A stretch of DNA of 64,000 nt, taken from positions 1 to 64,000 of the forward strand of contig MSYE01000182.1 in the NCBI GenBank assembly GCA_002176905.1, read 5' to 3'. Every line of letters begins with the position of its first letter. Positions within the stretch are counted from its first letter, which is position 1. The notes under the pieces are model-generated. The model saw only the letters and a program-made list of their open reading frames with translations. It was not told the origin of the DNA and searched no databases. The DNA is from a bacterium F11. GTDB lineage: Bacteria; Elusimicrobiota; Elusimicrobia; F11. A program made the translations under genes and the position numbers. Of this stretch, positions 9,054-62,485 are shown in pieces.

Positions 9054-9064
9054 TTATTGGCTCC

Positions 9065-41250: not shown

Positions 41251-42455
41251 CCTGCCACCGCATCTTTAAAGTAGAAGAGGACTTTTGCAAAGGGATCAAA
41301 GGGATTTCCTTTCTTTACGAAGAGGGGTGTTTCCACTTGGACCTCAACGAAACCCACGTCCCCCTGTTTTAATGATTCAACGTGGTTCTGCCCCAATTCG
41401 TCTTTAATGGTTTTGATTCTTCCTTTCACCCGTTGCGTCCGACATTCCAAATAGATTTCATCTTCTATCTGAAGGAGGGTGGGGCAGGCCCAAAAAGTTT
41501 GAGAAGACACCGAATGGGTTATTGAAAGGTGGTTTTTGTTTGAAAGAAGAACGGTTCCTCTCTGTAATCCTTGAGGATGATTGATTTTCAGGGCTACAGA
41601 CTCCCCTTCTTTGATCTGTTTCTTTTTTCCATCAAGGGTTAAGATCTTCTGGACCTGCACCGCATCACCAGAAGGATATAGGAAAAGTTCCTGATCTTTT
41701 TGAAGCATCCCCTGTTCAAGGCGACCAAGCGCCAATATTTCTTTATCAATTTCATAAACCAATTGGACAGGGAAACATACATCTTTTGACCCATTTTCCG
41801 TTATCAAGTTATCACTCGGCAAGGCTCCCATATACTCGACCACGGTGGGCCCCTTAAACCACGACATGTGTTTGCTTCGACTCACAACGTGGTCGCCTTC
41901 TTTTGCAGAGATAGGAATAATCTCTTGTGGTTTCAATTGATAGCTTTCAAGAAGGACATCAATTTCTTTTGCCAACCTTACATATTGTTGTTGATCAAAA
42001 TCCACCAGATCCATTTTGTTGATGAGAACAGCCATTCTCTCTATTCCAATCATCTTTAAAATCTGAACATGTTTCTCGGTTTGTTCTTTTATTCCTTCTT
42101 GCACATCCAAGAGGAGAAGAGCATTCTTTGCTTGCGTGGCACCCGTGATCATATTTCGCAAATATTGTTTGTGTCCCGGGGCATCCACAAAAATGTAGGG
42201 TTGATCACTGAGCCGAAAGAAGGTCTGAGCGGTATCAATGGTGATATTGTGCTCTCTTTCTTCTCGAAATTGATCAAGTATGTGGGCGAACTGCATCCCT
42301 TCCGATGCATGGACATTTTCGGATAGTTCTGTTTTCTTATCGAGGGTCAGATTGTCGGTATCATAAAGCAGTCGACCTATAAAAGTTGATTTACCATGAT
42401 CAACATGTCCAACAATAACAATCCGTTTTGGATCTTGAGGTTTTTCCGAAACCAC
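41223..42455 (-). CDS. cysN: Sulfate adenylyltransferase subunit 1 (GTPase)
   Basis: GTPase subunit that drives adenylyl-sulfate formation together with CysD. G-motifs are clear: P-loop GHVDHGKS (16-23), DAPGH (91-95) and NKMD (146-149). The remaining ~200 residues are elongation-factor-like beta-barrel domains. At 410 residues it is not fused to an APS kinase (CysC). The GTG start directly follows the cysD stop TAG, so the two are coupled. Inside a glycan locus it could serve glycan sulfation as well as cysteine synthesis; no sulfotransferase, cysC or cysH is seen in the window. Confidence 0.93.
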   Translation of the reverse strand: MVSEKPQDPKRIVIVGHVDHGKSTFIGRLLYDTDNLTLDKKTELSENVHASEGMQFAHILDQFREEREHNITIDTAQTFFRLSDQPYIFVDAPGHKQYLRNMITGATQAKNALLLLDVQEGIKEQTEKHVQILKMIGIERMAVLINKMDLVDFDQQQYVRLAKEIDVLLESYQLKPQEIIPISAKEGDHVVSRSKHMSWFKGPTVVEYMGALPSDNLITENGSKDVCFPVQLVYEIDKEILALGRLEQGMLQKDQELFLYPSGDAVQVQKILTLDGKKKQIKEGESVALKINHPQGLQRGTVLLSNKNHLSITHSVSSQTFWACPTLLQIEDEIYLECRTQRVKGRIKTIKDELGQNHVESLKQGDVGFVEVQVETPLFVKKGNPFDPFAKVLFYFKDAVAGCGIIQSIN

Positions 42456-43259
42456 CTACATATACCCCAAAGACCGAAGTTTCTGCATCATAAATGCCGA
42501 TTCCTTATCTTGAGCCCGCCCAGCTCGCTCTGAGATATTGGTCTCTCTTATCTCTTTGATGATTTGATCAATATTCTGTGCTGAGGATTCAACGGGAGAA
42601 CAACATCTTTCGCATCCAATGCTTCGAAAACGCTTTTTTTGTTTGGCGTAATATAGTTTCACGCTCGGTAGTTTTTCTCGTCTTGTATAGAGCCAAATAT
42701 CCAACTCTGTCCAATCCAGGAGAGGGTGAATTCGAATATGGTGGTCCTCTTCGCGTCCCTTTCCGTATTGTTCCCAAACTTCCATGGGTTGATTCTTATA
42801 ATCCCACTGAAAATCGTCGTTTCGTGGTGAAAACACTCTTTCTTTGGCACGAATCCCATGTTCATCCCGTCGAATCCCAAGAAATATGGCATCAAACCCT
42901 TTTTCCTTGATTGTATTCTGAAGGGCTTTGGTTTTTAGAGCGGTGCAACAATTGAGTCGCCCTTCTTTCTCCGGGCTCATTCCCTTTTCGAGAGCCTCCT
43001 CGTTTTTAGCCACAAGAAGGTTTAGTCCCCACTTCTTAACCAATCTGTCCCGTTGCTCATACATTTCCTTAAATTTGTACGAAGTATCGATATGAAGAAC
43101 AGGAAAAGGAAGCTTCCCCAAAAAGGCCTTTCGACAAAGCCATAGAAGAGCGGTGGAATCTTTCCCAATAGACCAGAGAAGGGCACTAATGGGATGCTGA
43201 GCATAGGCTTCCCGAATGGTATAGATGCTTTTGTTTTCTAAATAATCCAGATGGTCCAT
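42456..43259 (-). CDS. cysD: Sulfate adenylyltransferase subunit 2
   Basis: Catalytic subunit that forms adenylyl sulfate from ATP and sulfate. This PP-loop ATP pyrophosphatase has SIGKDS at residues 30-35, with Ile in place of the second Gly of the common SGGKDS, as in some CysD lines. Family stretches are FPVLHIDTSYKFKEMYEQRD, FLGIRRDEHGIRAKER and FRSIGCERCCSPVES. The length of 267 residues is normal. It is the first gene of a cysDN pair, 5 nt downstream of rfbD on the same strand. Confidence 0.94.
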   Translation of the reverse strand: MDHLDYLENKSIYTIREAYAQHPISALLWSIGKDSTALLWLCRKAFLGKLPFPVLHIDTSYKFKEMYEQRDRLVKKWGLNLLVAKNEEALEKGMSPEKEGRLNCCTALKTKALQNTIKEKGFDAIFLGIRRDEHGIRAKERVFSPRNDDFQWDYKNQPMEVWEQYGKGREEDHHIRIHPLLDWTELDIWLYTRREKLPSVKLYYAKQKKRFRSIGCERCCSPVESSAQNIDQIIKEIRETNISERAGRAQDKESAFMMQKLRSLGYM

Positions 43260-43264
43260 AAAAT

Positions 43265-44119
43265 TTAAATTAGTTTATCTTTTATCGTTGATAAAAAGTT
43301 ATTCAATCCTTCTTGCCATGGCAAGAGAGGACACACCTCCCTCTCCCATTTGGATGTATCCAACAATGGCTTGGCGGGGCGGGGAGCTGCCAACCCCAAA
43401 TCCTTAAGCCCAACAGGTTCAAGTAGGGATAATTCCTTTCCTACCAATTTCTTCCCCAACGCTTTTGAAAATTCATATCGAGAGCAATATCCGGTATGGG
43501 CCAGGTGATAGGTTCCATATTTCGGTTTCTTTTCAATAAGGGCAAAAATCCATTTTGCCAGATCTCCGACATACGTGGGAGAGCCAAAAAGATCAACAAC
43601 GAGTTTAATGGGTTTTGAATCTTTCAGGGCCGCAATCACTCTTGAAGCGGGATTGGACCGACCTTCTCCATAAAGTGTTGTCACACGGAGGATGTAATGC
43701 AAAGGATGGCTTCGCACAGCTTCCTCCCCCTTAAATTTAGACCGCGCATATTCGGACAGAGGAGAGGGCGCGTCGTCCTCCCGATAAGCTCTCTCTTGCA
43801 AACCAGAAAAAACATAATCAGTTGAAAAATGAATAAAAGGAATTTTCCATCTAGAACATTCCTTTGCAATTGTTGCAGGACCCTCCGAATTGACCTGATA
43901 AGCTAAGGCAGACTCATTTTGGGCCTGGTCAACTTGATTGTAAGCAGCTGCATTGATGACCCAATCGGGCTTATCGTTTTGGAGGATTTTGGAGATTTCA
44001 AGAGGCTGGGTGATATCGACCTGTCGGTCATACCCTCTCAATTGAATATCAGAAGGGGACTGACGCTTAAGTTCCCCCCCCAACAAACCTTTCACACCAA
44101 AGAGAACGATCTTTTTCAA
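43265..44119 (-). CDS. rfbD: dTDP-4-dehydrorhamnose reductase family protein
   Basis: Reductase for the last step of dTDP-L-rhamnose synthesis or a similar keto-sugar. The 284-residue protein has an N-terminal NADPH loop GVKGLLGGEL (8-17), VINAAAYNQVD, STDYVFSG (~99-106) and the Tyr-x3-Lys pair in SEYARSKFKGEE (~124-135). No rfbA, rfbB or rfbC lies in the window, so the dTDP substrate must come from elsewhere or the enzyme acts on another nucleotide sugar. An 8-G tract (44074-44081, plus-strand C) in the Gly pair is in frame. Confidence 0.85.
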   Translation of the reverse strand: MKKIVLFGVKGLLGGELKRQSPSDIQLRGYDRQVDITQPLEISKILQNDKPDWVINAAAYNQVDQAQNESALAYQVNSEGPATIAKECSRWKIPFIHFSTDYVFSGLQERAYREDDAPSPLSEYARSKFKGEEAVRSHPLHYILRVTTLYGEGRSNPASRVIAALKDSKPIKLVVDLFGSPTYVGDLAKWIFALIEKKPKYGTYHLAHTGYCSRYEFSKALGKKLVGKELSLLEPVGLKDLGLAAPRPAKPLLDTSKWEREVCPLLPWQEGLNNFLSTIKDKLI

Positions 44120-45472: not shown

Positions 45473-46792
45473 CTAACGGTAACGCTCGAAAGAGGATACC
45501 GGCGCCAAATCCACAAGATCTTTTTCCTCAAATTTCTTCAAATGATCCAACAATTGATTAAAAGGAACGTTAAAGATTTGGGCGATTTCAAAGATTGTTC
45601 GCTTTCCATCAAAATACCGTAACAACCCATCCTGCAACTGACCCAACCTTAAATCTTCGAGTTTGATTTTCTTTTTTACAACGGGATCTGGCCTCTCTAT
45701 ATAAAGATTGTATTTTGGATTTGACAGGGCAATTAATCCCTTAAATTTCCGCTGGATGGTCCGATCCTGTTCAAAAATCATCACCATGTCCTTTAAAACC
45801 TCCAAAGACTCGTTAATTTTATCGGGTGACATAATTTTTACATTATCTTCACTGGTGTGATACTCTTTGTAAGGCCATCGTGAAATGGACACCATTGGCA
45901 TCTCAACGCCTGGCGCCTCCCAGACTGTTTCATCATTTCCAACAACGGTCCGAAAATCGCCCACCTTCAACTTGGATTGGTATTTCCTTAAAACATATTC
46001 ACTTACTTTATCAATGATGCTTTGGCCGGTAAAACTCTTCTGTAGAACCCAAGGTGTTTTTGACCCGATCATCTCCACAAAAACACCCAATTTAAGTCGA
46101 GCCAAATCCTCCGGAGATAAACTGTTTATATAAAAAACTGTTCCAATGTGTTCGGGCCCAATCACACCTCGATAACTGAAATTTGTCTTCCTCCCTTTCA
46201 ACCATTTAAACAGTTCCAAAATTACCATCACGCCTGCCAATCCATCGTTGGCCTGACACGTGTGACAGGTATGGGCATTAAAAACCAGGGTCTCGGGGGA
46301 AGCCCCTTCATGATGCAATTCTCCTACCACCATTTCGTCTTTAATAAAATCGGTATCCAAATCTATTTGATAATTTCCAGAGGTCCATTTTCGACATATA
46401 TCATACGGAACGCAAAATCCCCAATGCTTGGCCCAGGGCCGATAATTGTTCATACAGTGATAGGCATAGGCCTTGGGAAACTTCTTTGTGAAAAAGAGAT
46501 GTTGATCCAATACTTTTTTTGAGACAGTTCCATTAAAAGGAGATGAATATCCCGCAACAGCCATGGGATGGACCATCCCATCAAAAAGAACTTTCCCATT
46601 TTTTCTTATCACCGCCTTCTTAACGACCCATTTATGAGGAATGATCCATCCGTTGTGTTCAATACCGGTTGGAAATCGTTTTATTTCAAAGGGAACAACC
46701 GACTGCAACATATCAAGCGTCGTTTTGTTCCCTTCTTGGGAAACCCCTAAGTTAAGCTTTAAAATATCATCTAACAAATTCAGATCAATCAT
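45473..46792 (-). CDS. DUF4910 family aminopeptidase-like protein
   Basis: A 439-residue cytoplasmic protein of the DUF2172/DUF4910 type, with an M28/M20-like zinc peptidase fold. The segment FNAHTCHTCQANDGLAGVMV (~188-207) holds candidate zinc ligands His and Asp, followed by GPEHIGTVFY, and YHTSEDNVKI near 340 supplies a further His. The C-terminal ~75 residues look like a winged-helix module (RTIFEIAQIFNVPFNQLLDHLKK). In glycan loci this family is often seen near glycosyltransferases, with no proven substrate. Its ATG overlaps the upstream methyltransferase stop by 4 nt. Confidence 0.75.
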   Translation of the reverse strand: MIDLNLLDDILKLNLGVSQEGNKTTLDMLQSVVPFEIKRFPTGIEHNGWIIPHKWVVKKAVIRKNGKVLFDGMVHPMAVAGYSSPFNGTVSKKVLDQHLFFTKKFPKAYAYHCMNNYRPWAKHWGFCVPYDICRKWTSGNYQIDLDTDFIKDEMVVGELHHEGASPETLVFNAHTCHTCQANDGLAGVMVILELFKWLKGRKTNFSYRGVIGPEHIGTVFYINSLSPEDLARLKLGVFVEMIGSKTPWVLQKSFTGQSIIDKVSEYVLRKYQSKLKVGDFRTVVGNDETVWEAPGVEMPMVSISRWPYKEYHTSEDNVKIMSPDKINESLEVLKDMVMIFEQDRTIQRKFKGLIALSNPKYNLYIERPDPVVKKKIKLEDLRLGQLQDGLLRYFDGKRTIFEIAQIFNVPFNQLLDHLKKFEEKDLVDLAPVSSFERYR

Positions 46793-47907
46793 AAGGAAAC
46801 CTCATTCAGGGGCTTAAGTTCCATCAAATTCCAAAGCGGGAATTCCTTTGCGAAAGAATATCCTCTTGGATCTGTCTTTTCATAAGCAGGATTTGGTGTT
46901 AAATCCTCCATCCAAGTAACGGAAAATCCTCCCTTGGCAAAGGATTGAACAATCTCGCTCATTGTTCCGGTGACATGAAACCGGCGATTCAGATATTCCG
47001 TCCGGATGGTAAAAGGCCTATCGGTATCTCCCAACCAAGGAAGAAGCCAAAATACTGGATGAGGTTCCACGCTAATAAAGGTCCCATTTGGCTTCAAGAT
47101 TCTCCTAATGTCTCTTAAAAGAACTGATAAATCCGCCTCTGGATTGGGAACCGGAGAGACATGATAAAAAAGAAGCGCATCACTGATAAAAACAAAATCA
47201 GCAAATCCGTCTTGTATGTTTTTCATTGCGTCCGGCTTCCCCACTTCAGCAACGTCAAATTGGGCCCGAGGATGAGACATCCCCTTCGCCATTTCAATGT
47301 ATTTTTTATTCGGATCAATTCCAAGAACCAATTTTGCATACTCCGCCATTTTATTGGAATAGTAGCCAATCCCACATCCAATATCGACCACGGTGCTTTC
47401 GGGAGAAAACCGTCGCTTAAAATAAGATTTCAAGGAGTGGTCTTGAACAGCTCCATAGAGGTTGTTCCGAACAGATTTATAATCTTCTGTGAATTTTTGA
47501 TGTACCCACCACTTTCCTGGATCGACCCGTTGCTTCAACATCAACTCTTGCCCCATTTGCTGGTGAAAATTCCCCAAATTCTCAGAGTCCAAGAATGATG
47601 TCTTTAATTTTCCACGGGATCGGTATTCTTTTTCGTTTGCTATCAAAATGAAATATTTCTCCAGCAAGGCTATCAGCTCCCCCCCATTTAGTGACAAAGG
47701 CGATGGCCATTGTTTGGGTTCTCTCCTGTAACGTGTGGGATCAGCAAGGAGCCCCTCTGAATTGGAAAAGAAAGACACCTCCCAAGCCTGAAATGGTCCG
47801 CTGCTCAAAAGGTTCCCCTCTTTGCCTTTCTCTTTTCCTTCGACTTCACGCAAGAATTTCACCCCATCCGAGTCAAGCATGACACAGGTTCGGGCAAACA
47901 CATTCAT
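46789..47907 (-). CDS. Class I SAM-dependent methyltransferase with ~160-residue N-terminal extension
   Basis: Residues ~168-300 form a Rossmann methyltransferase core: TVVDIGCGIGYYSNKMAEY (motif I), LGIDPNKKYIEMA (motif II) and DGFADFVFISDALLFYH (motif IV). The first ~160 residues, including WEVSFFSNSEG and DPGKWWVHQKF, do not resemble a domain I know and could hold a substrate. It overlaps the DUF4910 gene by 4 nt and sits 62 nt after the AAC(3)-fold gene. Candidate targets are a sugar hydroxyl or the acyl group made by the upstream genes. Confidence 0.82.
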   Translation of the reverse strand: MNVFARTCVMLDSDGVKFLREVEGKEKGKEGNLLSSGPFQAWEVSFFSNSEGLLADPTRYRREPKQWPSPLSLNGGELIALLEKYFILIANEKEYRSRGKLKTSFLDSENLGNFHQQMGQELMLKQRVDPGKWWVHQKFTEDYKSVRNNLYGAVQDHSLKSYFKRRFSPESTVVDIGCGIGYYSNKMAEYAKLVLGIDPNKKYIEMAKGMSHPRAQFDVAEVGKPDAMKNIQDGFADFVFISDALLFYHVSPVPNPEADLSVLLRDIRRILKPNGTFISVEPHPVFWLLPWLGDTDRPFTIRTEYLNRRFHVTGTMSEIVQSFAKGGFSVTWMEDLTPNPAYEKTDPRGYSFAKEFPLWNLMELKPLNEVSL

Positions 47908-47969
47908 GATAAGCCAAAGGCCTTTTTGCTCAGGAAAAATCGCGATGTCTTTAGGAACGATATAGATAA

Positions 47970-48845
47970 TTAACTCCCTTTTCCCAAACGAATATGTTCG
48001 GGAATGTATTTACCTGTGCTGCCATCCATGGGGATCTCACCAGGCACAAATTCTGGTTTCTGAACACAAAAATAGTAATTGTTTTCTTGGACCTTTTTGG
48101 CACCTTCCTCATAAATCTTTTTGGTGGAGGAAAGGTAATAAATCCATCCCCTCCCAATGGATCCCTTTTGAATGTAGCCTTTGTCTTCCAGATGGGTTTC
48201 AAAGGGCTTGGGGTTTTCCGAAATCTTAAACCGTGGATCGCGATAGCGAACACAAGATACAATGGGATAAGGAACAGGAACACCGTCCTCATAGACCGGT
48301 GTTGTGTAAATTTTATTGTAGAAATGAGGAACACCAAAGCGGGCTTGAATATATATCACAAATGTGAAGGCCTGACTCGGTCTGAGACCCAAAAAACACA
48401 TTTTGCTGTCATAATCATATAGCTTTTCCCATGGGGATCCAGCACCATATCCCGAACCGGATGGTTCATGACAAATACTCTTTGCAAGAGGTCCGACACC
48501 TGTAACAGAACTCAAGGGATTAAACGACCGAACGGATTCAGGCAAGCTGGTTATGTATTGACTAAAAACGCCCTGCCCCCGATCAACTGGACTTTTCCTG
48601 CAATCAAATGGTGTACCAAACCGCGCATAATCATCAAATGAAGTGGGTACCGTTAGGGTCCCCTCTTTACCCAAAACCTCGCGGAAGGCCTTTAGAACAA
48701 ATTTTGGGGTATCTCTTAAGGGGACATCGGCCATGGTTCCCAACGGGAACAAGGCACTGTGGACATGAACAACATCTCCCTTTTTAAGGCCCATCTCCTG
48801 GAGAACCCTAACAAGATCAGAATATGTGTAATCCCCTTTTGTCAT
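47970..48845 (-). CDS. AAC(3)-fold N-acyltransferase
   Basis: Member of the aminoglycoside 3-N-acetyltransferase family. Typical elements are the opening LVRVLQEMGLKKGDVVHVHSAL (first ~30 residues), GTLTVPTSFDDYARFG and GAGSPWEKLYDYDSKMCFLGL (~130-150), which correspond to the acyl-CoA pocket and catalytic region. Such proteins in surface-glycan or natural-product loci acylate amines other than drugs, and nothing here suggests antibiotic resistance. Its ATG overlaps the acyl carrier protein gene by 4 nt, which makes an acyl-ACP donor attractive, but that is inference. Confidence 0.82.
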   Translation of the reverse strand: MTKGDYTYSDLVRVLQEMGLKKGDVVHVHSALFPLGTMADVPLRDTPKFVLKAFREVLGKEGTLTVPTSFDDYARFGTPFDCRKSPVDRGQGVFSQYITSLPESVRSFNPLSSVTGVGPLAKSICHEPSGSGYGAGSPWEKLYDYDSKMCFLGLRPSQAFTFVIYIQARFGVPHFYNKIYTTPVYEDGVPVPYPIVSCVRYRDPRFKISENPKPFETHLEDKGYIQKGSIGRGWIYYLSSTKKIYEEGAKKVQENNYYFCVQKPEFVPGEIPMDGSTGKYIPEHIRLGKGS

Positions 48846-49105
48846 ACTTTTTTTAATTTGGATTCCAAGATCTCTAACAAACCGCCAATCGTTTTAAATT
48901 TGGGATTCTCAAGATCCTCATTATCCAAACGGAATTCGAATTCTGATTCAATCTTGGTAATTAGCTCCACAACGCCAAAAGAATCTATCAGTCCCGTCAT
49001 AATATAGTCACATGCCAGTTTTTCGTTCTCCGAATTTCCCGGTATGGATCCAAATTGGGAAAAGTAATCCAACAAGAACTCTTTTGGATTTTTTGGGATA
49101 CTCAT
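48842..49105 (-). CDS. Acyl carrier protein
   Basis: An 87-residue acidic four-helix protein. The phosphopantetheine site is Ser42 in GLIDSFGVVEL, where the usual D-S-L reads D-S-F. The rest fits: an acidic recognition helix (ELITKIESEFEF) and a C-terminal TIGGLLEILESKL. It is encoded between a cyclase-family gene and an AAC(3)-fold gene with 4-nt overlaps on both sides, so it is a dedicated carrier and not the fatty-acid ACP, which is normally found with fab genes. A phosphopantetheinyl transferase is not present in the window. Confidence 0.88.
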   Translation of the reverse strand: MSIPKNPKEFLLDYFSQFGSIPGNSENEKLACDYIMTGLIDSFGVVELITKIESEFEFRLDNEDLENPKFKTIGGLLEILESKLKKV

Positions 49106-49779
49106 TTACTCCTCCTTTCTTTTTCAATAGCAAAACATCTTGCCGCTGCGCCATCTCCCTTCACTATCCTTAATGGAGCGACGATCAATTCAACTTCCGG
49201 TCCTTCAAGTTGGTTCAAATTGCACAAGTATTCTACAAGAACAACATTCTTTCCCAAAAATATCTTATGAATGGGCGAATCGTTATCTGAATGAAATCCA
49301 TTTTTGGGGTTGTCCGGCATGGGGGTATCATACCCCACCAATTTGATTCCTTTCTCCACAAGCCATTTGGCGGCCTCTTCTGAAAAGAAAGGATGATCAG
49401 GATAATAATCAGATTTCCCCCAATGATCAGACCAGTCAAACCGAACCAAGATTCGCTCTGGCTTTTTGTCCCCTATTTGCGATTTAAAATCCTTAATTCC
49501 CATTTCTTGTTTGGGATTGGCGTAAGAGAAATCCAATAGAAGGGCTGGACCTACCAATATATCAATTGGAATCTCATCAATTGTTCTACCACCAGGGATA
49601 AAATGCTGAGGGGCATCGACATGCGTACCTGTATGGGTTCCGAAAACGACTTTTCTGGTTTCCCGTTTTTCGACTTCGTGACGGCCCAACACGTTTATCT
49701 CGACTTTGGGGTGCCAATGAACAGGGAAAACCGTCATCCCTTCATGAATAGGAAAAGACAGATCAACAATTTTCTTCAT
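49102..49779 (-). CDS. Cyclase-family (kynurenine-formamidase-like) hydrolase
   Basis: Metal-dependent hydrolase of the cyclase family (PF04199). The 225-residue protein has the family signature HTGTHVDAPQHF (residues 49-60), with His and Asp metal ligands, and then FIPGGRTIDEIP and LVGPALLLDFS. A second conserved region, FHSDNDSPIHKIFL, fits the C-terminal active-site strand. Members cleave amides such as N-formylkynurenine or act in polyketide cyclisation. In this operon it may hydrolyse or cyclise the intermediate loaded on the carrier protein. It overlaps both neighbours by 4 nt. Confidence 0.85.
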   Translation of the reverse strand: MKKIVDLSFPIHEGMTVFPVHWHPKVEINVLGRHEVEKRETRKVVFGTHTGTHVDAPQHFIPGGRTIDEIPIDILVGPALLLDFSYANPKQEMGIKDFKSQIGDKKPERILVRFDWSDHWGKSDYYPDHPFFSEEAAKWLVEKGIKLVGYDTPMPDNPKNGFHSDNDSPIHKIFLGKNVVLVEYLCNLNQLEGPEVELIVAPLRIVKGDGAAARCFAIEKERRSK

Positions 49780-50591
49780 TTACCGACCTCCACCAATTCA
49801 ACAAATTCGTTTCCTGGTCCCTGAAATACCTCGACCAATAATTTCTTGTTGTTAATTCCAATTTTAAAGGGACAGGTTGAATCTTTGGCCCCTGCTTCAA
49901 ACAATCGGTCCCGGTCTTTTTCAAGTTGCGTCGTAATAAAAGCCAAACAAGAAAATCCGGAATTATCAAGTTTCACAGGTGCAATTTCCTTTTTTTGATC
50001 AACCAGAACCATCTCTGTTGACCAGCTGGAAATGGGAGCGTAAAATTTCAATCTCAACCATTTCCCCTGTTTCCCAGAATTCGATTGCGTGTCCATCTTA
50101 AAGCCCAAACCCTTTTCCCAAAAATCCCTGGATTCCTCAAAGCGATCTGTCCTTATCAAAAGGCTCCTAATGATCATTTTTGATGAATCTGAATCTTTTT
50201 CCCACCAAAAAGGGATTTTAAGGTGTGACCAGACACCAAGTATAGAATTTTTTGAAATTCCCGAATCTTTCCATATTCTGGCCAATTTCTCATCTTCCTC
50301 ATGATTCAAACTCCACTGATCAAGGTTTCCTGTCCAATGAACCTCATAATTTGAAGGGCCTTCTTTTGGCTCGCTGCCATGATCGATAAGCTCAATAGGA
50401 ATACCACGGTCTTTTGTCAACAAAGCCAATGAATGTCCCTTTTGATAAAAATTCAAAAATTTCTTTTTTCCCTCATTATTGGGAGCATCTTTTTCCAGAA
50501 AAACCAACTCAAAACCTTTTTCCCGTAATTTTGCCGAATCAGCGTCGACATTCGCACACGACAAGGTTAAATGACTAACACCAATTATCAT
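49776..50591 (-). CDS. VOC superfamily (glyoxalase-like) protein with two domains
   Basis: The 271 residues contain two vicinal-oxygen-chelate modules: residues ~1-90 (IIGVSHLTLSCANVDADS to SLALLTKDRGIPIELID) and ~140-270 (RSLLIRTDRFEESRDFWEK to LLVEVFQGPGNEFVEL). HLTLSC and the terminal VEV-x4-G segment supply the usual His/Glu metal ligands. The family includes dioxygenases, epimerases and lyases, so the reaction cannot be named. The gene overlaps both the AMP-ligase and the cyclase genes by 4 nt. Confidence 0.78.
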   Translation of the reverse strand: MIIGVSHLTLSCANVDADSAKLREKGFELVFLEKDAPNNEGKKKFLNFYQKGHSLALLTKDRGIPIELIDHGSEPKEGPSNYEVHWTGNLDQWSLNHEEDEKLARIWKDSGISKNSILGVWSHLKIPFWWEKDSDSSKMIIRSLLIRTDRFEESRDFWEKGLGFKMDTQSNSGKQGKWLRLKFYAPISSWSTEMVLVDQKKEIAPVKLDNSGFSCLAFITTQLEKDRDRLFEAGAKDSTCPFKIGINNKKLLVEVFQGPGNEFVELVEVGK

Positions 50592-52163
50592 TGTTTTATC
50601 TGAGCAAACTTTTCCCTTAAAATGTTCTTTTTAACCTTCCCATTGACCGTCACAGGAAATGATTCCACCTCAAAATACTTCGAAGGAATAGAATCTGGAT
50701 TCAACATTCTTTTACAAAGTTCTCTGATCGTTTCTATTTCAATTGAAAACTCAAAACCTGGTTTTAATTTTATGGCTGCCACCACCTCTTCGCCAAAGAA
50801 ATCGTTGGGGATTCCCACCACCGCGACCTGCTCAACAGACTGATGATGCAGGATGGTTTCTTCAACGGCCTTGGGACTAACGTTCATTCCACCATGAATA
50901 ATCAAATCTTTTTTCCGCCCGGTGATAAATATATTTCCCTCAGAATCCCGGCACCCCACATCTCCCGTTGGAAACCAATCATAGGGATCTGTGTCAGAAG
51001 GATTGTTTGTTTTTTCATCCAGGTATCCCATCATCTTAAAGGGAGTTTGAATCCATATTTCACCTTCCTTTCCCCCCGTAACTTCTTCGCCGTCATCCCT
51101 CATAAATTTGATATTTATTCCTTCTAAAAGACGACCAACACTTCCCCCCATCCGTTTGTTTCTTGGTGTGTTTGCTGTGATAAAAAGCAATTCCGATAGT
51201 CCATAACTTTCCATTAATTCTTTCGTGTATTTTTCCTCAAAATCTCTTTTTGTTTTCTGGGGAAGAGCTGCGGTACCCACACATACCGTCCGAACCTTAT
51301 TTTGACAATAAATGGGCGCATCAAGATTCCGATCAACTCTTAAAAGAGTGGCCAAGATCGTGGGGGTCATCCAAAATGTATTGGCATCATGCTTCATCGC
51401 ATCCTTCCAAAAAGTCAGAATCGCCAGAGGGTCAAACGCACGGGTCAAAACAACACTTCCTCCTGCCACAAAAGGACAAAGAAGCAAGTTCAAAAATCCA
51501 GCCATATAAGACATGGGAAGAATGTGATAAAAACGGCTTTTTGAGTCAAAATCCATATGCTTATTAAAAACCCGTGAATTCTCAAGCAGATTAAAGGCAG
51601 AATGGGGAACGCCCTTCGGTCGACTCGTTGTCCCTGATGTAAAGGTTATGGACAATATCTGGTCTTTTTTAAGGGGATAAACAGAAATGGGAAGAAATTG
51701 CGATTTCTCATCAGAATCATCAGTATTTCCGATTTGAAGTCCATCCTTATTATTACCCCCCTCATTTAGGAGGGAAATTAAAAGCCCCCCCCCCTACCTT
51801 AACATCAATACTACTGTCTTTGAGGGTATTTGATGTTTTCTGGGAATAAATGAGCAATTTGGCACCAGAATGGTCCAAAATATACTGGATTTCATCTCGA
51901 TGCAATTGGGGATTAATAGGGACGATGGTGACCCCAAAAATAAGGCAGGTAAAATAAAGAAAGACAAATTCAGCCGAATTTGGAAGGAGAACAGCAATCC
52001 GATCTTGAGAATAAATTCCCCTATTATTCAACAGTTGGATGAATTTGACACATTTCTTATAAATATCGCCGTATGTATAGGCTCTGTCTGTTTGAGCATC
52101 AATAAGATATATCTGATTTCGTCTCTTCTCAAATATTCTCTTAATCTCATCTTCATTTATCAT
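50588..52163 (-). CDS. AMP-dependent acyl ligase, frameshifted in a 10-G tract
   Basis: Adenylate-forming enzyme that would activate a carboxylic acid for transfer to CoA or to the carrier protein in the operon. The start is ATG 52163, overlapping the aldolase stop by 11 nt. The first fragment (ending at 51762) has the N-terminal domain (YTYGDIYKKC, PNSAEFVFLYFTCLIFG). The second has FTSGTTSRPKG, ESYGLSELLF, DWFPTGDVG, GRKKDLIIHGGMNVSPKA and the C-terminal lysine in NGKVKKN. The frames meet in a G10 tract (51785-51794, plus-strand C). With nine G the whole reads as one open frame of 524 residues, and I found no stop between the tract and the second fragment. As written the protein is broken. 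Confidence 0.85.
51785..51794 (-). repeat. G10 homopolymer at the frameshift of the AMP ligase
   Basis: Ten C residues on the plus strand (G on the coding strand), the longest G/C homopolymer I saw in the window. Nine would restore a continuous 524-residue ligase. The tract falls in a poorly conserved linker, where a Gly-Gly-Gly run would be tolerated. Confidence 0.88.
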
Positions 52164-53232
52164 CAGCAGATTGCTCCGACCCGTGATAACGCTCCACATT
52201 AAAACGGGCGGTGTAAAATCCTTGCCCTTTTTCTATTAGGTTTTTGGCTTCATTTTCAACCAATTCCTTTGGGGCGCTAACTTTGTTCTTCTTTGTAACG
52301 GCCATAATAAGTTGACGAGGATCAACATCATACCGACTTGAATAATCACGAATCGTTGCCATAAAGCTGGAATGAAAGTCAGCCATTCCACAAACCGTAT
52401 CCAAAGATTCGTAACCACGTCTTTGAATCAATGGTTTAATGTATTTCTCACCGATATCCATTATTTTAATTGGATCCAATGCCGATGTATTGAGTCCCTT
52501 TTTCTCCAAGATAGAAACATACAATTCCGTTGGCGTATTTCCAGCACTACGCCCCAATCCTTGCAGGGATGTATCAACCAAATAAGCCCCCAGCTCCAAC
52601 GCCTTTAACGAATTGGCAATGGCCAATTCCAAATTGTTGTGACCATGAAACCCGATCTTCACATCACATACATCTTGAATGGCTCGGATATATTCCTCCA
52701 CATCCGAAGGTAACATTCCACCGGCAGAATCAACAACATAAACCACTTCGGCCCCGAATTTCTGACTCAATTTGGCTTTCTGGGCAAATTGCTTGGATTC
52801 CATTGCATAGGATTTCATAAAATTGGCACATACAAACATCCCATATTTCTTCGCTCGCTCTATGAAAGGTTCTGATTCTTCCATCCGCGAAACATCTGTC
52901 CCAATCCGAATAAATCCCATTCCATGTTGCCCGGCTTTATCCACATCTTCCAATCGGGCAATTCCCGGAATACAAAACATCCCAAACTTTGCCTTCTTCA
53001 AAACACGAGCCGCTGCCTCCATGTATTCGGTATCGGTTTGAGCCGCCTTACCCTGCCCGCTGTTCGAAGCATTCAAACCCACGCCATGACCAATTTCAAT
53101 AGTATCGAATCCCGCTTCTTCTAAGGCTTGGCAAATGCGTTCCGTATCTCGTGTCGTGAATTGAAAGTCAATTGTGTAACTACCATCACGCAATGTTGTC
53201 TCAAGTATTTTTGATTTTTCTTTTTTGCTCAT
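52153..53232 (-). CDS. DRE-TIM aldolase family protein (4-hydroxy-2-oxovalerate aldolase-like)
   Basis: A 359-residue TIM-barrel enzyme of the DRE-TIM metallolyase family. The name-giving motif is TTLRDGS (residues 13-19). Metal ligands appear in FHGHNN (~195), and VDSAGGMLPSDVEEYI and VDTSLQGLGRSAGNTP follow the family layout. The relatives 4-hydroxy-2-oxovalerate aldolase and homocitrate/isopropylmalate synthases make or break 2-oxo acids. Here it would provide or consume a short oxo/hydroxy acid for the ligase next door. It ends 11 nt inside the ligase gene and starts 27 nt before the asparagine-synthase-like gene end. Confidence 0.9.
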   Translation of the reverse strand: MSKKEKSKILETTLRDGSYTIDFQFTTRDTERICQALEEAGFDTIEIGHGVGLNASNSGQGKAAQTDTEYMEAAARVLKKAKFGMFCIPGIARLEDVDKAGQHGMGFIRIGTDVSRMEESEPFIERAKKYGMFVCANFMKSYAMESKQFAQKAKLSQKFGAEVVYVVDSAGGMLPSDVEEYIRAIQDVCDVKIGFHGHNNLELAIANSLKALELGAYLVDTSLQGLGRSAGNTPTELYVSILEKKGLNTSALDPIKIMDIGEKYIKPLIQRRGYESLDTVCGMADFHSSFMATIRDYSSRYDVDPRQLIMAVTKKNKVSAPKELVENEAKNLIEKGQGFYTARFNVERYHGSEQSADDK

Positions 53233-53259: not shown

Positions 53260-55122
53260 TCAATTATATACTTCCAAAGGTTTCTTAATTCTCTCAATGG
53301 AATTTAACCATAATTCCAAATTAACCAACTGCCAAAAAAACATCATATGATTATCCTGCTCTTTTCCCTTTTGAATAATCTGGTTATGTTCCTCTATAAG
53401 ATTCTTAACGTATTCGACGTCATATATTCCTCTTTCACGAAAAGATTGCGAATGAACGATATCTTTAAGAAGCGTTTGTCCCTTCCCAGAAAACCAAACG
53501 TGCGCTGGGGCGTTCCAACCCGTCTTCTTTATTCGCGTTCTTGTTTCTTCAGGCAATATATCTTTCATTGCCAATCGGAGGAGATGTTTTGTTACCCCTT
53601 TTTTAATTTTAAGATCGCCAGGGATCCGAAACATAAATTCAACCACCCTATAGTCCAAAAAGGGCAAGAAATTGTCCAGTCCGAATGCCATTGTTTGTCG
53701 GTCTTCAGCCCGAAGACAACAAGGCATGGTTTCTCGATATATATCCTGATAGGTTCGGTTTTTTAAATATTTATTAAAAGAATGATCCATAATAGGCTCA
53801 AAATTCGTTAAATCGAAGAAATCTTTTCTTAAGGCAGGCACGTACCGGTTTAATCTCTTCTTGTCCGATAAGCAAACACCCGGCCTTGAGAAATCCACGA
53901 GTCTCGACAAGGCTTCTTCCATGACATCTTTGTTCTTTTTATAAATAGGGTGATCATGGTATTGAACCCAAAATTTCATTTCCTCATCTAACTCTTTTTC
54001 CTTTCCCTCTTTTCTCAAATCTGCAAAATGGAAAAAGAAATACTCATATTCACCCGCGTTTAATTCATCTCCGCCGAGACCACCAAAGATACTATCGAAT
54101 CCCTCTTGAGCCACCTTTTGACTCAAATGATAATGAGGAAGCCAGGTTGCGGTGGCCACTGGTTCATCATGAAGATCAATCATTTTTTCGACATCATCGA
54201 GGATATCCGGTTGTCCGATTTGAATGGGATTCCATTTTTCGACAGCAGAATCGAGCATGGATCCGATTTCCAATGATTCGTCATAGGTTTTATCTTCGTA
54301 AACTGTTGAAAAAGCCTGCTGTCTCTCTCTCTTTATCGAAACCGCCGACCCCAGGACAGAGGAGGAATCCATTCCCCCTGAAAGAGTAAAGGCCGGTTTG
54401 GATACCACCTTCAATCGATCCGAAACGGATTGCAAAAGAAGGGACCGATATTGTTCGGCTAAGGAATTCTCATCCTTCGCAATTTCGGCAGAATCCGTAA
54501 GACGCCAATATGCCGATTTCCTTATCGTTGAACCCTGAACCTGAATATAGTGCGCTGCCGGAAGCTGAGATATTCCTTCGTAAGGAGAGGCCTCCGAATC
54601 ATTATCAAATGAACGATAATGGGACGCAGCAAAGATGGCTACAAATTTTTTATTAAAACCCTGGAAAATACCAGGAATGGAAATCAATGATTTCAGACGT
54701 GACGAAAACAAAAACCGGTTATCCTTAAAATGGTAATAGAGGGGTTTACAACCAAATCGATCTCTTGCCAACCAAAGTAAATTTAGATGTGAATCATACA
54801 ATGCGATCGAAAAATCGCCATTGATTTTCTTTAAGGCACCTTCAAACCCATATTGCTGATACAATTCCAAGACAATCGCCGCATCGGACCCTTGCCTTGT
54901 AAATTCATCACGATTGAATAAGACGCCATCCATAACAACAAGGCAATTGTCTTTTTTCTCAATATTCTGATGTCGGGAACCTGCCCAGCCCATTGCAGCG
55001 TTTTTAAATACTTGAATCTTAACATCCCAATTCTGCGGGATATTGAGAGATCTTAGCATCTCCCCCACATTGATAGATTTTCCGGATTGATCCGTAAAAT
55101 AAGTACCCGCTATTCGTGACAT
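53260..55122 (-). CDS. Asparagine-synthase-like amide ligase lacking the N-terminal cysteine
   Basis: Two-domain protein of 620 residues. The N-terminal glutaminase-like domain opens MSRIAG, where true asparagine synthases have MCGIAG, so the Cys nucleophile is Ser and ammonia release from glutamine should be lost. The C-terminal synthetase domain has an intact PP-loop SGGMDSS (~247-253) and FGGLGGDELNAGEYEYF. Homologues with this loss, such as beta-lactam synthetase and lasso-peptide cyclase, join a carboxylate to an internal or external amine. It may attach an amine to the acid made by the adjoining module. It overlaps the gene at 55110 by 13 nt. Confidence 0.85.
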   Translation of the reverse strand: MSRIAGTYFTDQSGKSINVGEMLRSLNIPQNWDVKIQVFKNAAMGWAGSRHQNIEKKDNCLVVMDGVLFNRDEFTRQGSDAAIVLELYQQYGFEGALKKINGDFSIALYDSHLNLLWLARDRFGCKPLYYHFKDNRFLFSSRLKSLISIPGIFQGFNKKFVAIFAASHYRSFDNDSEASPYEGISQLPAAHYIQVQGSTIRKSAYWRLTDSAEIAKDENSLAEQYRSLLLQSVSDRLKVVSKPAFTLSGGMDSSSVLGSAVSIKRERQQAFSTVYEDKTYDESLEIGSMLDSAVEKWNPIQIGQPDILDDVEKMIDLHDEPVATATWLPHYHLSQKVAQEGFDSIFGGLGGDELNAGEYEYFFFHFADLRKEGKEKELDEEMKFWVQYHDHPIYKKNKDVMEEALSRLVDFSRPGVCLSDKKRLNRYVPALRKDFFDLTNFEPIMDHSFNKYLKNRTYQDIYRETMPCCLRAEDRQTMAFGLDNFLPFLDYRVVEFMFRIPGDLKIKKGVTKHLLRLAMKDILPEETRTRIKKTGWNAPAHVWFSGKGQTLLKDIVHSQSFRERGIYDVEYVKNLIEEHNQIIQKGKEQDNHMMFFWQLVNLELWLNSIERIKKPLEVYN

Positions 55123-58519: not shown

Positions 58520-59638
58520 TTACCTCCATTTCCAATCCTGAATTATAAAATCGGTTATCTTCCAAAGACCATTCTGCTTTTTCCATATATTTATATTTCG
58601 ATATTGTTCAGCGATATCAAAGAAATCCTTCTCTTTTATCTCCACGAATTCACAGAACTTCTTAATATCTTCATGAGGCGTATCATCTCCTCTTTCTCGA
58701 ATCATATCAATGGCTTTCTCACGGGTTATACGGTTGTTTCGAATTTCAATTGACAAATTATCGAATAACCGGGTAAATCCAAATTTGTACCACTTCAAAT
58801 AATGGTGGATCGAAATAAAATCATCGTCGATATCGGCGTAATTGTAAAGCCCCGTTCTGGGACCCTCTTCTCTGACTTTAAAACCCTTTTCCAAGGCCAC
58901 ACGCAAACTGATTTCCGGATCCCAGGGAAAGTAATAGCCCAAAAATATAGCGGAGAGAGGACCCTGATCCAATTCTTTTGGATCAGGGCCAAAATACGGC
59001 GTCAATTCCTTTTGGGTGAGCGAATCCGAGATCCAATCTTCGGCTGTTGTTCCATGTGTCACACCGAATTTACCAAGCCATTTGCTATCGAGTTTAAATC
59101 CTGTTTGTTCTTCTTCTTTTCCGCCATATTCAAAAGCGGTATTCTCCCCCCAAACCACCAAAGGAATTTCGTATTTCAAGGCAATTTTCAGTGGAATATT
59201 AAACAGGGCCATATGCATGGGAATGGCCGTGCTCCCGTATTTCTGTAGAGCTTGAAACATAAATTTTCTCTCAACCTTGGGATTAATTTGATAATCAATA
59301 TGATCAACACCTAATTGAATGAGATTCTCCAGGTTAAGATAACCCAATTTGGTTCGAGCAGGCGTTTTCCAGGTAACCGCCAATGGATTTAGCCCATATT
59401 CCAAGCACTTAACAACTTGCCAAGTGCTGTCTTTCCCGCCACTAACCGGAATCAAACAATCATATCCTTTGCTTTTTTTCTTCGCCCCCTGAACAATCTT
59501 CTGGAACGATTCCTCTCTTTTCTCCCATGGGATCTGTGGCTTTGTTTCTGAAGCCCGACAGGCGTTACAAACTCCCTTAGAATCAAATTCAATATTGGGT
59601 CTCGAGTCTGGGATGACACACCGGATGCAATACCTCAT
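58520..59638 (-). CDS. N-acetyl sugar amidotransferase (WbpG/PseA/LegG family)
   Basis: ATP-dependent enzyme that installs an amidino group on an N-acetyl sugar. A treble-clef zinc site is formed by Cys4, Cys7, Cys24 and Cys27 (YCIRC, CNAC). The PP-loop SGGKDS is at 66-71, and WGENTAFEYGGKEEE and GYYFPWDPEISLRV are family stretches. ATG 59638 is preferred over ATG 59647 because it overlaps the asnB stop in an ATGA with GAGGA 9 nt upstream (372 residues). Usual partners are HisH/HisF-like proteins that deliver ammonia; none is visible, and asnB takes that place in the operon. Confidence 0.9.
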   Translation of the reverse strand: MRYCIRCVIPDSRPNIEFDSKGVCNACRASETKPQIPWEKREESFQKIVQGAKKKSKGYDCLIPVSGGKDSTWQVVKCLEYGLNPLAVTWKTPARTKLGYLNLENLIQLGVDHIDYQINPKVERKFMFQALQKYGSTAIPMHMALFNIPLKIALKYEIPLVVWGENTAFEYGGKEEEQTGFKLDSKWLGKFGVTHGTTAEDWISDSLTQKELTPYFGPDPKELDQGPLSAIFLGYYFPWDPEISLRVALEKGFKVREEGPRTGLYNYADIDDDFISIHHYLKWYKFGFTRLFDNLSIEIRNNRITREKAIDMIRERGDDTPHEDIKKFCEFVEIKEKDFFDIAEQYRNINIWKKQNGLWKITDFIIQDWKWR

Positions 59639-61467
59639 ATTCGACATTCCTCAAGGAACAATTTTGATGACAAGAAATAAAATAGGAATTTGCTTTCACT
59701 ATTGGGCAGATCGGGCTTCTGCATCAACTTCTCAATCGATTCACGATTAACCAAATCGAATATTGGACTTTTATCCAACAGTTGTTCCCTAATGGTGCGA
59801 TCATTAACATCAAGGAAGGAATAAATTGGTGAATTAAATCCAACTTTCCTGGGACTATCCAACACCTTATCAGGAACAATCCCCCTCATGGCTTCTCTTA
59901 AGACGGCCTTTGCTCGTCCGTCCCTTATCAACAATCGACTCGGTATTTGAGAACAGAAATCAAATAAGCGACGATCAAGGAAGGGGGACCTGTTTTCAAT
60001 GGAATAAAACATTGAGTTCAGATCATCTTCATGCAAAATAACCGGAATGGCCTCATGAAACAATTCATTCATCATACGGTTCCTGAGCAAATCATCTGTG
60101 TATGAAGTCTCAGAAAAAGGTTGAAACCAATCTCTTTTTAGGTATTTTGAAAAATCACGTGCGTCCAAGTAGATATGATCCCTAAATTTGGCATCCTCAA
60201 TAAACAAATCCGGGTTCCTCAAAAACGGATTTCGAACGATGGGCTTAATGTTCTCCATCCAGGCTGCACGAGAAGATTGATGCAAGGCTTTGTCTTTTCT
60301 TACTTCATAAAGATAGGCCAGATGATGATCAAAATAGCCCGTAAAGAATTCATCGGCTGCCGAACCACTAATAGATATTTTGTATCCATGCTTGGCAATA
60401 CTCTCGATAAGAAGCCATTGTGTGAAATAGGTTATTGTGATAACAGGCGCATCATGCTGGCGGACAAGGGTTCTCATTTTGGGGAGGAAATCTTTTGTAT
60501 TAACAGGAATTGTTGTGTGGCGTATCTTTAATTCCGAGACAGAATGCTCGACCATTTCCCTCTCATCGTATCGAGGATCGGTGTTCACAATGGTAAATCC
60601 GTGAACATCATAATCAAAAACCCGCTTAGCAATACTGATGAGAGAATTGGAGTCCACCCCTCCGCTCATACAAAAAGCCAAGGGCACATCCGATCTCAAT
60701 CGCAACTTTACCGAATCAATAAGTTTTTCACGGGTCCCCTCCACGGCTTGTTCAAATGTCATCCCATCCTTTGGATTGTACTGAGGAATCCAATACTTCT
60801 TGTTAATTTCTTCCCCTTTTTCATTAAAGATGGCGTATGTGGCAGGATGCAATTCCCGCAGATTCCTATAAAATTTGTGATCTTCCTTATAAAGAGATTT
60901 ATATCCATTCACCAGATAACGAGAAATATGATCGAGGTTGAATTCCAAAGGTTTTCCAAGGAGACTCTGGATAAATTTTACTTCAGAACCAAAATACAGC
61001 CCTGTTTTATCCCGATAAATATAAAGTGGTTTCTCTCCAAACCTGTCTCTTGAAAAAGAAAGGGTTTCCTTTGCCTCATTATAGATGGCAAAAGCCCACA
61101 TTCCCTCAAGTTTATCGAGGACTTCCCATCCATTGACATCGATGGCTCTTAAAAGAACTTCGGTGTCCGATGAGGTTGAAAAAGAATGACCTTTTGCCTC
61201 CAGCTCTTTGCGAATTTCAAGGTAATTGTACAATTCGCCATTAAAAACCATCCAATTTGGACCAATCTTGGAGGGCTGATGAGAACGGGGATCCAGATCA
61301 ATAATGCTCAGGCGGGAATGAAGCAAATAGACGTTTTTTCCAGCTTTTGTTTTCCACTGACCAAAATCCGAATGATCGGGGCCTCTCCTTTTCATAAGAC
61401 CGAGACATTGTTCAATTTGACTCGGAGAGAGCGATCTCGTTCCAAAATATCCAGCTATTCCACACAT
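59635..61467 (-). CDS. asnB: Asparagine synthetase (glutamine-hydrolysing) family protein
   Basis: Full-length 610-residue enzyme. The glutaminase domain starts MCGIAGYFG with the catalytic Cys2 and contains RRGPDHSD, HSRLSIIDL and VFNGELYNYLEIR. The synthetase domain has the PP-loop SGGVDSNS (~270) and GSAADEFFTGYF. It therefore should make ammonia from glutamine and form an amide, with aspartate or another acid as acceptor. It overlaps the sugar amidotransferase gene by 4 nt and lies 1 nt before the NeuB-like gene, so an accessory role in glycan amidation is more likely than housekeeping asparagine synthesis. A second family member at 53260 lacks the cysteine. Confidence 0.92.
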   Translation of the reverse strand: MCGIAGYFGTRSLSPSQIEQCLGLMKRRGPDHSDFGQWKTKAGKNVYLLHSRLSIIDLDPRSHQPSKIGPNWMVFNGELYNYLEIRKELEAKGHSFSTSSDTEVLLRAIDVNGWEVLDKLEGMWAFAIYNEAKETLSFSRDRFGEKPLYIYRDKTGLYFGSEVKFIQSLLGKPLEFNLDHISRYLVNGYKSLYKEDHKFYRNLRELHPATYAIFNEKGEEINKKYWIPQYNPKDGMTFEQAVEGTREKLIDSVKLRLRSDVPLAFCMSGGVDSNSLISIAKRVFDYDVHGFTIVNTDPRYDEREMVEHSVSELKIRHTTIPVNTKDFLPKMRTLVRQHDAPVITITYFTQWLLIESIAKHGYKISISGSAADEFFTGYFDHHLAYLYEVRKDKALHQSSRAAWMENIKPIVRNPFLRNPDLFIEDAKFRDHIYLDARDFSKYLKRDWFQPFSETSYTDDLLRNRMMNELFHEAIPVILHEDDLNSMFYSIENRSPFLDRRLFDFCSQIPSRLLIRDGRAKAVLREAMRGIVPDKVLDSPRKVGFNSPIYSFLDVNDRTIREQLLDKSPIFDLVNRESIEKLMQKPDLPNSESKFLFYFLSSKLFLEECRI

Positions 61468-61468: not shown

Positions 61469-62485
61469 TTATGCCCTCCCCCCTTTTTTAAAAGGGATAA
61501 GCTCTCCCTTCTTAATTGATTCTCTCACCTTTTGACCAATGATATCTGACACCTTCGTATAAGATGACTTCCCTTGCATTCGAATCCACATCAGGTCCTC
61601 TTTTCCAATCTTTTCGCCGGGCATCAAATCTCTTTTTGCGGCCAATCCTCTCCTAACAATATTTAATAAAGGTTTTTCACAGACTTGCACTTCTTTCATT
61701 CCTGAGCCCATCATCCGTGAAATCTTTCTAATGCTTTCTACCAGATGTTTCAATTCACCGGGATCTGCTGATAATTTGTGATCTCGAAATTCAGATTGGT
61801 TTTTATCAAGGGTGAAGTGTTTCTCAATGATACGGGCCCCCAGGGCCACCGATGCAAGAGATCCTTCAAAACCCAAAGTATGGTCGGAATATCCAATTGT
61901 ACAATCAAATGCTTGAATCATATGCGAAACGGCTTTGATATTGGCCTGAAGGTCTGGAACAGGATACGAACTCACACAATGCAAAAGAGCCAACTTTCTA
62001 TTTATTTCATTTTTGCTCCACACTTTCTTGATTCTGGCCATTAATTTCCGACATTCTTGTATACCAATCAGTCCCGTTGAGACGATTGTTGGCCTCTTTG
62101 TCTTAAGTACATAATCAATGAGAGGAGTAAAATTGTTATCACTTGAAGCGATTTTAAACGCCGATACGATCCCATTAAGAAAATGAGCACTCTCCATATC
62201 AAGAGGGGTGGAGATAAAATGGATTCCCTCTCCTTTTGCGATTTCGCTCAGCTTTTCAAACTCATCATATGCCAATTCAAATCGTTTTAGCTGTTGAAAT
62301 CGTTTTTCATCACAAAGACCCACAAATTGTTCCGTCTTAAAAGTTTGAAATTTGACAGCATCAACACCGCACTCAGCAGCCCTTTTTACCATCTCCACGG
62401 CCTTCGAAAAGTCGCCCTCATGGTTATTTCCCACCTCAGCAACAACAAAAATGCCTTTATCGGTATCGAATTGGCCTATTTTCAT
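61469..62485 (-). CDS. N-acetylneuraminate synthase family protein (NeuB/LegI/PseI-like)
   Basis: Condenses phosphoenolpyruvate with a six-carbon N-acyl sugar to make a nonulosonic acid. The 338-residue protein has the TIM-barrel opening VVAEVGNNHEGD (14-25), AVKFQTFKTEQF and IGYSDHTLGFEG, with metal-binding histidines. Residues ~275-335 form the C-terminal SAF antifreeze-like domain (RRGLAAKRDLMPGEKIG). The family includes sialic, legionaminic and pseudaminic acid synthases, and I cannot choose among them. The CMP-transferase and the epimerase for a full pathway are not in view, but a UDP-sugar epimerase-like gene and a GNAT gene follow on the right. Confidence 0.88.
   Translation of the reverse strand: MKIGQFDTDKGIFVVAEVGNNHEGDFSKAVEMVKRAAECGVDAVKFQTFKTEQFVGLCDEKRFQQLKRFELAYDEFEKLSEIAKGEGIHFISTPLDMESAHFLNGIVSAFKIASSDNNFTPLIDYVLKTKRPTIVSTGLIGIQECRKLMARIKKVWSKNEINRKLALLHCVSSYPVPDLQANIKAVSHMIQAFDCTIGYSDHTLGFEGSLASVALGARIIEKHFTLDKNQSEFRDHKLSADPGELKHLVESIRKISRMMGSGMKEVQVCEKPLLNIVRRGLAAKRDLMPGEKIGKEDLMWIRMQGKSSYTKVSDIIGQKVRESIKKGELIPFKKGGRA

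Follow-up and report, generated by a model that had tools for sequence, protein, structure and literature searches.

The 64,000-nt stretch analyzed here (hereafter, the window; positions 1 to 64,000 of contig MSYE01000182.1, assembly GCA_002176905.1, from the elusimicrobial bacterium F11) carries on its minus strand a compact series of genes for a DRE-TIM aldolase, an AMP-forming acyl ligase, a two-domain VOC protein, a cyclase-family hydrolase, an acyl carrier protein (ACP), an AAC(3)-fold protein, a methyltransferase and a DUF4910 protein. On balance, we believe that this is a recurrent biosynthetic cassette, which makes a short hydroxy or oxo acid and uses it to N-acylate a nonulosonic acid of the pseudaminic or legionaminic type, or an amino-sugar precursor. 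The gene set, its order, coupling and conservation, the ACP serine and the residue changes described below are direct observations.

Gene order and recurrence of the cassette

Six-frame open reading frames (ORFs) and Pfam matches place the following elements in the window, all on the minus strand and given here in reading order:

52153..53232, minus: DRE-TIM aldolase of an RDGSY clade related to 4-hydroxy-2-oxovalerate aldolase (Pfam HMGL-like; TIGR03217; clade residues Y19/H287)
51762..52163, minus: AMP-forming acyl ligase, N-terminal piece, a 133-aa frame (Pfam AMP-binding positions 6-106 of 384)
51785..51794, minus: ten-G run on the coding strand, site of the ligase frame change and longest homopolymer of the window
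50588..51793, minus: AMP-forming acyl ligase, C-terminal piece with the catalytic part, read in the second frame (Pfam AMP-binding 167-384, AMP-binding_C; listed ORF 50588-51655)
49776..50591, minus: two-domain VOC (glyoxalase-fold family) protein (Pfam PF00903)
49102..49779, minus: cyclase-family (PF04199) metal hydrolase (HxGTHxDxP motif)
48842..49105, minus: dedicated acyl carrier protein (NCBIfam and PDB carrier-protein matches; D-S-F site, Ser42)
47970..48845, minus: AAC(3)-fold N-acyltransferase-like protein, whose clade lacks the catalytic His of AAC(3)
46789..47907, minus: SAM methyltransferase (Pfam Methyltransf_11)
45473..46792, minus: DUF4910/DUF2172 (M28-like) protein, a recurrent partner in AAC(3) and aldolase loci

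The order from aldolase to methyltransferase that the first-pass annotation had read is borne out, and its account of the couplings also holds: all four junctions from the ligase through the AAC(3)-fold gene are ATGA-type overlaps of 4 nt, and the aldolase overlaps the ligase by 11 nt when 52163 is taken as the ligase start. A gap of 62 nt separates the AAC(3)-fold and methyltransferase genes. The DUF4910/M28-like gene, absent from that earlier list, continues the series with a 4-nt overlap with the methyltransferase. Such 4-nt junctions make up 9 of the 42 in the window's gene list, and shuffling gives p ~0.04 for four in a row; by themselves, four consecutive overlaps are poor evidence of anything beyond chance.

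A chance cluster is ruled out, nevertheless, since the gene set is conserved in unrelated genomes. Looking for conserved neighbourhoods with the families in order, as the first-pass annotation had suggested, recovered the same order in genome G1322 and all seven families on a single contig in G436 and G748. The locus of G1322 (L060) matches the window from aldolase to DUF4910, save for the methyltransferase, which in the window separates AAC(3) from DUF4910 and is missing here:

9719-10846: aldolase
8227-9735: ligase, open, 502 aa
7442-8230: VOC protein
6682-7374: cyclase
6425-6685: ACP
4863-6464: AAC(3)
3577-4878: DUF4910

The 16-kb contig of G436 (L054) holds an aldolase-ligase-VOC-cyclase run and an ACP-methyltransferase-AAC(3)-DUF4910 run, and the 31-kb contig of G748 (L066) divides the families between its strands, as aldolase-ligase-cyclase-DUF4910 and AAC(3)-ACP-VOC; both contigs were re-checked by tblastn. 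A fourth genome, G733 (L058), has the row ACP-ligase-cyclase-aldolase. DUF4910 is present in the aldolase loci L054, L057 and L060. The three full-set relatives share a methyltransferase of ~230 aa (57-60% identity); its nearest counterpart in the window (56531-57283) reaches only 23-28%.

The aldolase-clade sample comprises six genomes (G1322, G436, G748, G348, G733 and G404). Among 398 genomes from the phylum of G001 there were three clade matches (478-500 bits), all within one order of 48 genomes, the other 39 listed places being DmpG-like and reaching at most 261.3 bits; 385 genomes from the class of G001 gave two matches (565.1 and 350.7 bits), and 369 from the class of G589 gave one (541.9 bits). 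No clade member appeared among 245 genomes from the G007 phylum (two DmpG-like places only), among 50 from the G004 phylum or in 7 further genomes searched, and order-level searches around G748, G1322 and G733 returned each centre itself and no new example (1/4, 1/13 and 1/1). These searches score few first-look candidates per genome, so that absence is no proof. Over the six genomes, the ligase and the cyclase were each found in five, VOC and ACP in four, AAC(3) and DUF4910 in three, and all seven families in three. Ligase and cyclase genes adjoin the aldolase in 5/6 clade genomes; within 1.5-kb flanks they were found in none of 29 DmpG-like loci (out of 41 such places listed), three of which had an epimerase-like neighbour only.

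The surroundings are those of a glycan locus. Three neighbours in the window bear on this point:

53260..55122, minus: asparagine-synthase-like amidotransferase (domain and family matches)
58520..59647, minus: N-acetyl sugar amidotransferase of the WbuX family (TIGR03573, 346.7 bits, cutoff 203.2)
61469..62485, minus: NeuB-family nonulosonic acid synthase (Pfam NeuB; under the NeuB_NnaB and PseI cutoffs)

On the contig of G1322, PseI lies 0.7 kb away on the opposite strand (465.5 bits, cutoff 340.25) together with PseG, PseC and a gene resembling the WbuX-family amidotransferase of the window; FlgL and FlgK are ~9 kb away. Among the six relatives, a NeuB-family gene was found for G1322 (L060) and G733 (L071). 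The amino-sugar glycan setting proposed in the first-pass annotation is supported by the NeuB-family gene, the Pse genes of G1322 and the amidotransferases, and it points to nonulosonic acids. As a side observation, genes for an EF-Tu-like GTPase and a PAPS-reductase-like protein lie at 41223-43259, ~2 kb downstream of the DUF4910 gene; they read as a CysN/CysD-like pair, which suggests sulfate activation for the glycan.

The individual proteins and their altered residues

All proteins of the series had been assigned to known families. Two of them, the aldolase and the protein with the AAC(3) fold, are without catalytic residues that define the families after which they are named. The aldolase falls narrowly under the cutoff of TIGR03217, the equivalog for 4-hydroxy-2-oxovalerate aldolase (284.7 vs. 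286 bits), and passes the wider subfamily PRK08195 (310.9 vs. 229). It resembles DmpG/BphI (PDB 1nvm) in fold family, RDG motif and HxH metal ligands, and differs in the exchange of the active-site His and Tyr (Y19, H287). The RD motif and the metal ligands (R15, D16, H196 and H198) are kept in 32/32 clade rows, as are Tyr19 and His287, whereas the DmpG-like rows have His (29/29) and Tyr (25/29); K140, Y142, Y181 and R228 further distinguish the clade. Three of the rows are second copies of genes (L022/L052, L023/L053 and L024/L054), so that 29 distinct genes are represented; the alignment (A2) used 23 of the 120 matches listed, out of 2549. In BphI, the catalytic residues are His20 and Tyr290; the clade has the catalytic His/Tyr of 4-hydroxy-2-oxovalerate aldolases swapped. 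Plasmid-borne relatives could be dismissed: the best 25 of 457 plasmid records are at most 36% identical, and 24 of these are annotated dmpG. The scans made of viral contigs found relatives of neither the aldolase nor the AAC(3)-fold protein.

The second altered enzyme has the AAC(3) fold and scores 86 bits against the NF033082 equivalog (cutoff 270). Compared with AAC(3) acetyltransferases (PDB 6mn3 and 3ijw) and FrbF (3sma), its clade lacks the catalytic His, has Gln in place of Glu and has gained a new His126. The change of HxxE to xxxQ and the invariant His126 are common to 18/18 clade members, and the catalytic position, Ile164 in the window, is non-His in the same 18/18 and His in 9/9 outgroup proteins (P0139-P0147). 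This catalytic His is the residue given in PDB titles as mutated (H183, H154 and H168). Of 26 matches, 17 entered the clade alignment (A1) and the other nine served as the outgroup; the clade includes 16 relatives 45-60% identical to the query. Aminoglycoside resistance is disfavoured as a function, because the catalytic His is absent and the best 15 of 3243 plasmid records are no more than 31.1% identical.

A profile built from the 17 relatives led to seven loci in named genomes. An ACP gene immediately precedes AAC(3) in L001 (Alphaproteobacteria bacterium UBA6544); the other six are 30-36% identical, and five of them (L002, L004-L007) have DUF4910 within ~3 kb. Locus L006 (Pelagibacteraceae) runs in the order AAC(3), ligase, a small ORF judged ACP-like by eye and from an alignment, and DUF4910, with a NeuB gene upstream. 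Matches to AAC(3) occurred in 5/385 genomes from the class of G001, G748 among them. The AAC(3) proteins of L060 and of L054 (11414-13063) carry a long C-terminal extension: the one in L060 matches DUF2172, part of the DUF4910 protein, which also adjoins, and the one in L054 resembles the DUF4910 protein of the window by BLAST. Two further features of these loci were seen by eye. Metallo-hydrolase-like proteins with similar N-termini lie near AAC(3) (L001:4832-5287 and L067:4872-6149), and a fusion of pyruvate-kinase-like and sulfate-adenylyltransferase-like parts (L001:1230-3434) lies upstream of the ACP-AAC(3) pair.

The VOC protein had only itself as a match in a search of 5.8 billion proteins, yet relatives 23-27% identical occupy the same place in L053, L054 and L060 and follow the ACP in L066; it thus seems to evolve fast. 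Its single-sequence structure prediction was unusable (pLDDT 39.8). The window cyclase is 38-63% identical to those of L053, L054, L057, L058 and L060 and scores under the arylformamidase equivalog (78.8 bits vs. a cutoff of 223.05). The metal motif of PF04199 cyclases and kynurenine formamidases is HxGTHxDxPxH; the window has it as HTGTHVDAPQH, and it is present in 4/5 aligned relatives, L058 having HVSTHIDAPLH. The phosphopantetheine Ser of the D-S-F site is kept in all six aligned ACPs. The window ACP has no Pfam PP-binding match, while its L060 relative scores 24.9 against a gathering score of 20.8.

The interrupted ligase frame

The ligase had been listed as an ordinary gene of the series. 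In this sequence, two frames meet at the ten-G run, and no one open frame covers both domains. The first frame, with its start at 52163, ends at a stop at 51762; a different frame, open from the run to 50588, encodes the catalytic part. Both ligase Pfam domains are found, split over the two pieces (the N-terminal match was computed on the 145-aa ORF 51762-52199). The N-terminal piece aligns with intact relatives up to ~residue 118, the C-terminal piece matches the intact ligase of L057 at 47%, and the break falls between ~residues 118 and 154 of intact relatives. The G tract is weak as a remarkable feature in itself, given that 0.10-0.26 C/G runs of at least 10 are expected per window; G/C runs of at least 8 are mildly enriched (6 observed vs. 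1.6-3.1 expected). As an additional observation, five eight-G runs on the coding strand (13849-13856, 24696-24703, 28210-28217, 30602-30609 and 44074-44081) all lie within open genes of the locus, three of them in the first 60 nt, and no G run of at least 6 was found on the plus strand of the window. These runs are possible slippage sites or glycine GGG codons of Rossmann motifs.

With the ligase out of frame, this copy of the pathway is either inactive or switched, unless the run has been misread; the break may reflect slippage, decay or sequencing error, all of which are compatible with the sequence. An intact ligase, with the run miscounted through a sequencing or assembly error, has, in our view, close to an even chance. 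Homopolymers are the usual places of such errors, and the window's own proteins matched a single contig, of 99,648 bases, in protein searches; we see no decisive counterpoint, as the mild excess of G/C runs suits a tract-bearing genome and proves nothing. Decay of the cassette in this organism, with a ligase pseudogene and the remaining genes on their way out, would account for the broken frame, but we hold it to be quite improbable: the other module genes are open, both ligase pieces are open and similar to relatives on each side of the break, and the break sits at the longest homopolymer of the window.

A candidate pathway and its alternatives

The first-pass annotation saw in the series all the parts for making, loading and transferring an acid. 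The conserved gene set favours this proposal, while the acid and its transfer are our inferences and the ligase is broken here. The aldolase would condense a pyruvate-type enolate with an aldehyde to form a 4-hydroxy-2-oxo acid, and the VOC and cyclase-family proteins, in what is the weakest step of the scheme, might then rearrange this acid or hold its lactone open. The AMP ligase would adenylate the acid and load it onto Ser42 of the ACP, as suggested by the enzyme families and the ACP-ligase-cyclase-aldolase row of G733. The AAC(3)-fold protein, with its altered active site, would pass the acyl group to a sugar nitrogen, and the methyltransferase may O-methylate the acyl product. Two kinds of extra genes were seen in the relatives: two B12-binding radical SAM proteins encoded in G748 (L066:12706-14409 and L066:3101-4558, one directly following the VOC gene), which might methylate or rearrange the acyl group, and GFO/IDH/MocA oxidoreductases, carried by two full-set relatives out of three (L054:7630-8574 and L066:4745-5692), which could supply a reduction step.

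The first-pass annotation knew of no described pathway with this exact set. The half comprising ACP, N-acyltransferase and DUF4910 was published in 2014: according to PMC4000134, DUF4910 proteins occur beside NeuB, glyoxylase, aminosugar N-acetyltransferase and ACP genes, and a modified surface sugar was proposed. In that account, Clostridium acetobutylicum CA_C2186-CA_C2199 (DUF4910 being CA_C2195) shares a NeuB-family synthase, glyoxylase, DUF4910, N-acetyltransferase and ACP with the window. These neighbourhoods differ in that the table rows examined list an ATP-grasp ligase and no AMP ligase or cyclase, and the word "aldolase" is absent from the main text (PMC4000134). For the aldolase-containing half, no description was found in the open-licence literature searched for aldolase with carrier-protein or glycan terms, the cyclase not being among the terms named, and PMC13317340, PMC5109656 and PMC3438082 contain neither "aldolase" nor "acyl carrier". 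The flagellin-sugar operon sfmABCDE of Shewanella oneidensis (PMC3765264) combines a NeuB-family gene with genes for a methyltransferase and a predicted 3-oxoacyl-ACP reductase, but has a TPP enzyme and an ATP-grasp protein in place of the aldolase, AMP ligase, ACP and AAC(3).

A polyhydroxyhexanoyl group like that of Treponema denticola flagellin would fit as the product. The T. denticola glycan is reported (Kurniyati, 2017) to be a legionaminic-type sugar with a 2-methoxy-4,5,6-trihydroxyhexanoyl group at N7. The carbon skeleton of this acyl group equals pyruvate plus glyceraldehyde. Placed on a legionaminic acid frame, the group gives a computed mass of 450.185, which agrees with the 450.2 Da stated for the glycan in PMC9481697. 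This likeness is a chemical fit, not evidence of identity. It is tempting to go further and imagine a complete route, hitherto undescribed, in which a His/Tyr-exchanged aldolase joins pyruvate and a hydroxyaldehyde into a 4-hydroxy-2-oxo acid about as long as a sugar, the ligase loads the acid on a private ACP, an enzyme of the AAC(3) fold whose catalytic His has moved transfers it to a sugar nitrogen, and the G tract switches the ligase on and off, the whole being the missing route to groups such as that of T. denticola; we regard this scenario, taken in full, as rather unlikely.

Several observations weigh against a cassette for N-acylation. The 31-kb contig of G348 (L053) has aldolase-ligase-VOC-cyclase only, with no ACP, AAC(3) or DUF4910 match; the 48 kb examined of G733 gave no match to VOC, AAC(3) or DUF4910; and in G404 (L052) the aldolase stands alone on a 7.7-kb contig. 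No NeuB gene was found in the stretches examined of G436, G748, G348 and G404, and the nonulosonic or amino-sugar acceptor is deduced from neighbours. Pfam reveals no obvious 2-oxo reductase among the module genes. The full-set relatives L054, L060 and L066 have another AAC(3) subfamily, which retains HxxE, and the window clade, lacking the catalytic His in 18/18 members, may be something other than a transferase of known type.

This last point leads to a different outcome, in which acyl-ACP is made but the AAC(3)-fold protein does not transfer it, the acyl group going to an oxygen, into a diffusible small molecule, or to its acceptor through another enzyme such as a GNAT. The replacement of HxxE and the new invariant His126 speak for it, as do GNAT proteins in the window (62520-63269) and in L054; we still think it unlikely, given that the clade is well conserved and keeps its fold, and that its gene is coupled to, or stands beside, that of the ACP here and in L001. 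It would also be conceivable that the aldolase acts as a lyase, providing aldehyde or pyruvate for sugar synthesis, with the acyl group unrelated to it. Relatives of the DmpG type run in the cleavage direction, but the strict company of the clade aldolases with the AMP ligase and cyclase, joined by the ACP in G733 and found in 0/29 DmpG-like loci, makes this improbable to us.

Bacterial flagella and cell surfaces bear sialic-acid-like sugars with unusual N-acyl groups, and we know of no acyl source for many such groups. The cassette described here is a full candidate gene set for such groups, recurring in unrelated genomes. As the full candidate set keeps the same company there, loading and transfer become testable with purified proteins. 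For the two clades described here, an annotation such as "aminoglycoside acetyltransferase" or "4-hydroxy-2-oxovalerate aldolase" may be misleading.

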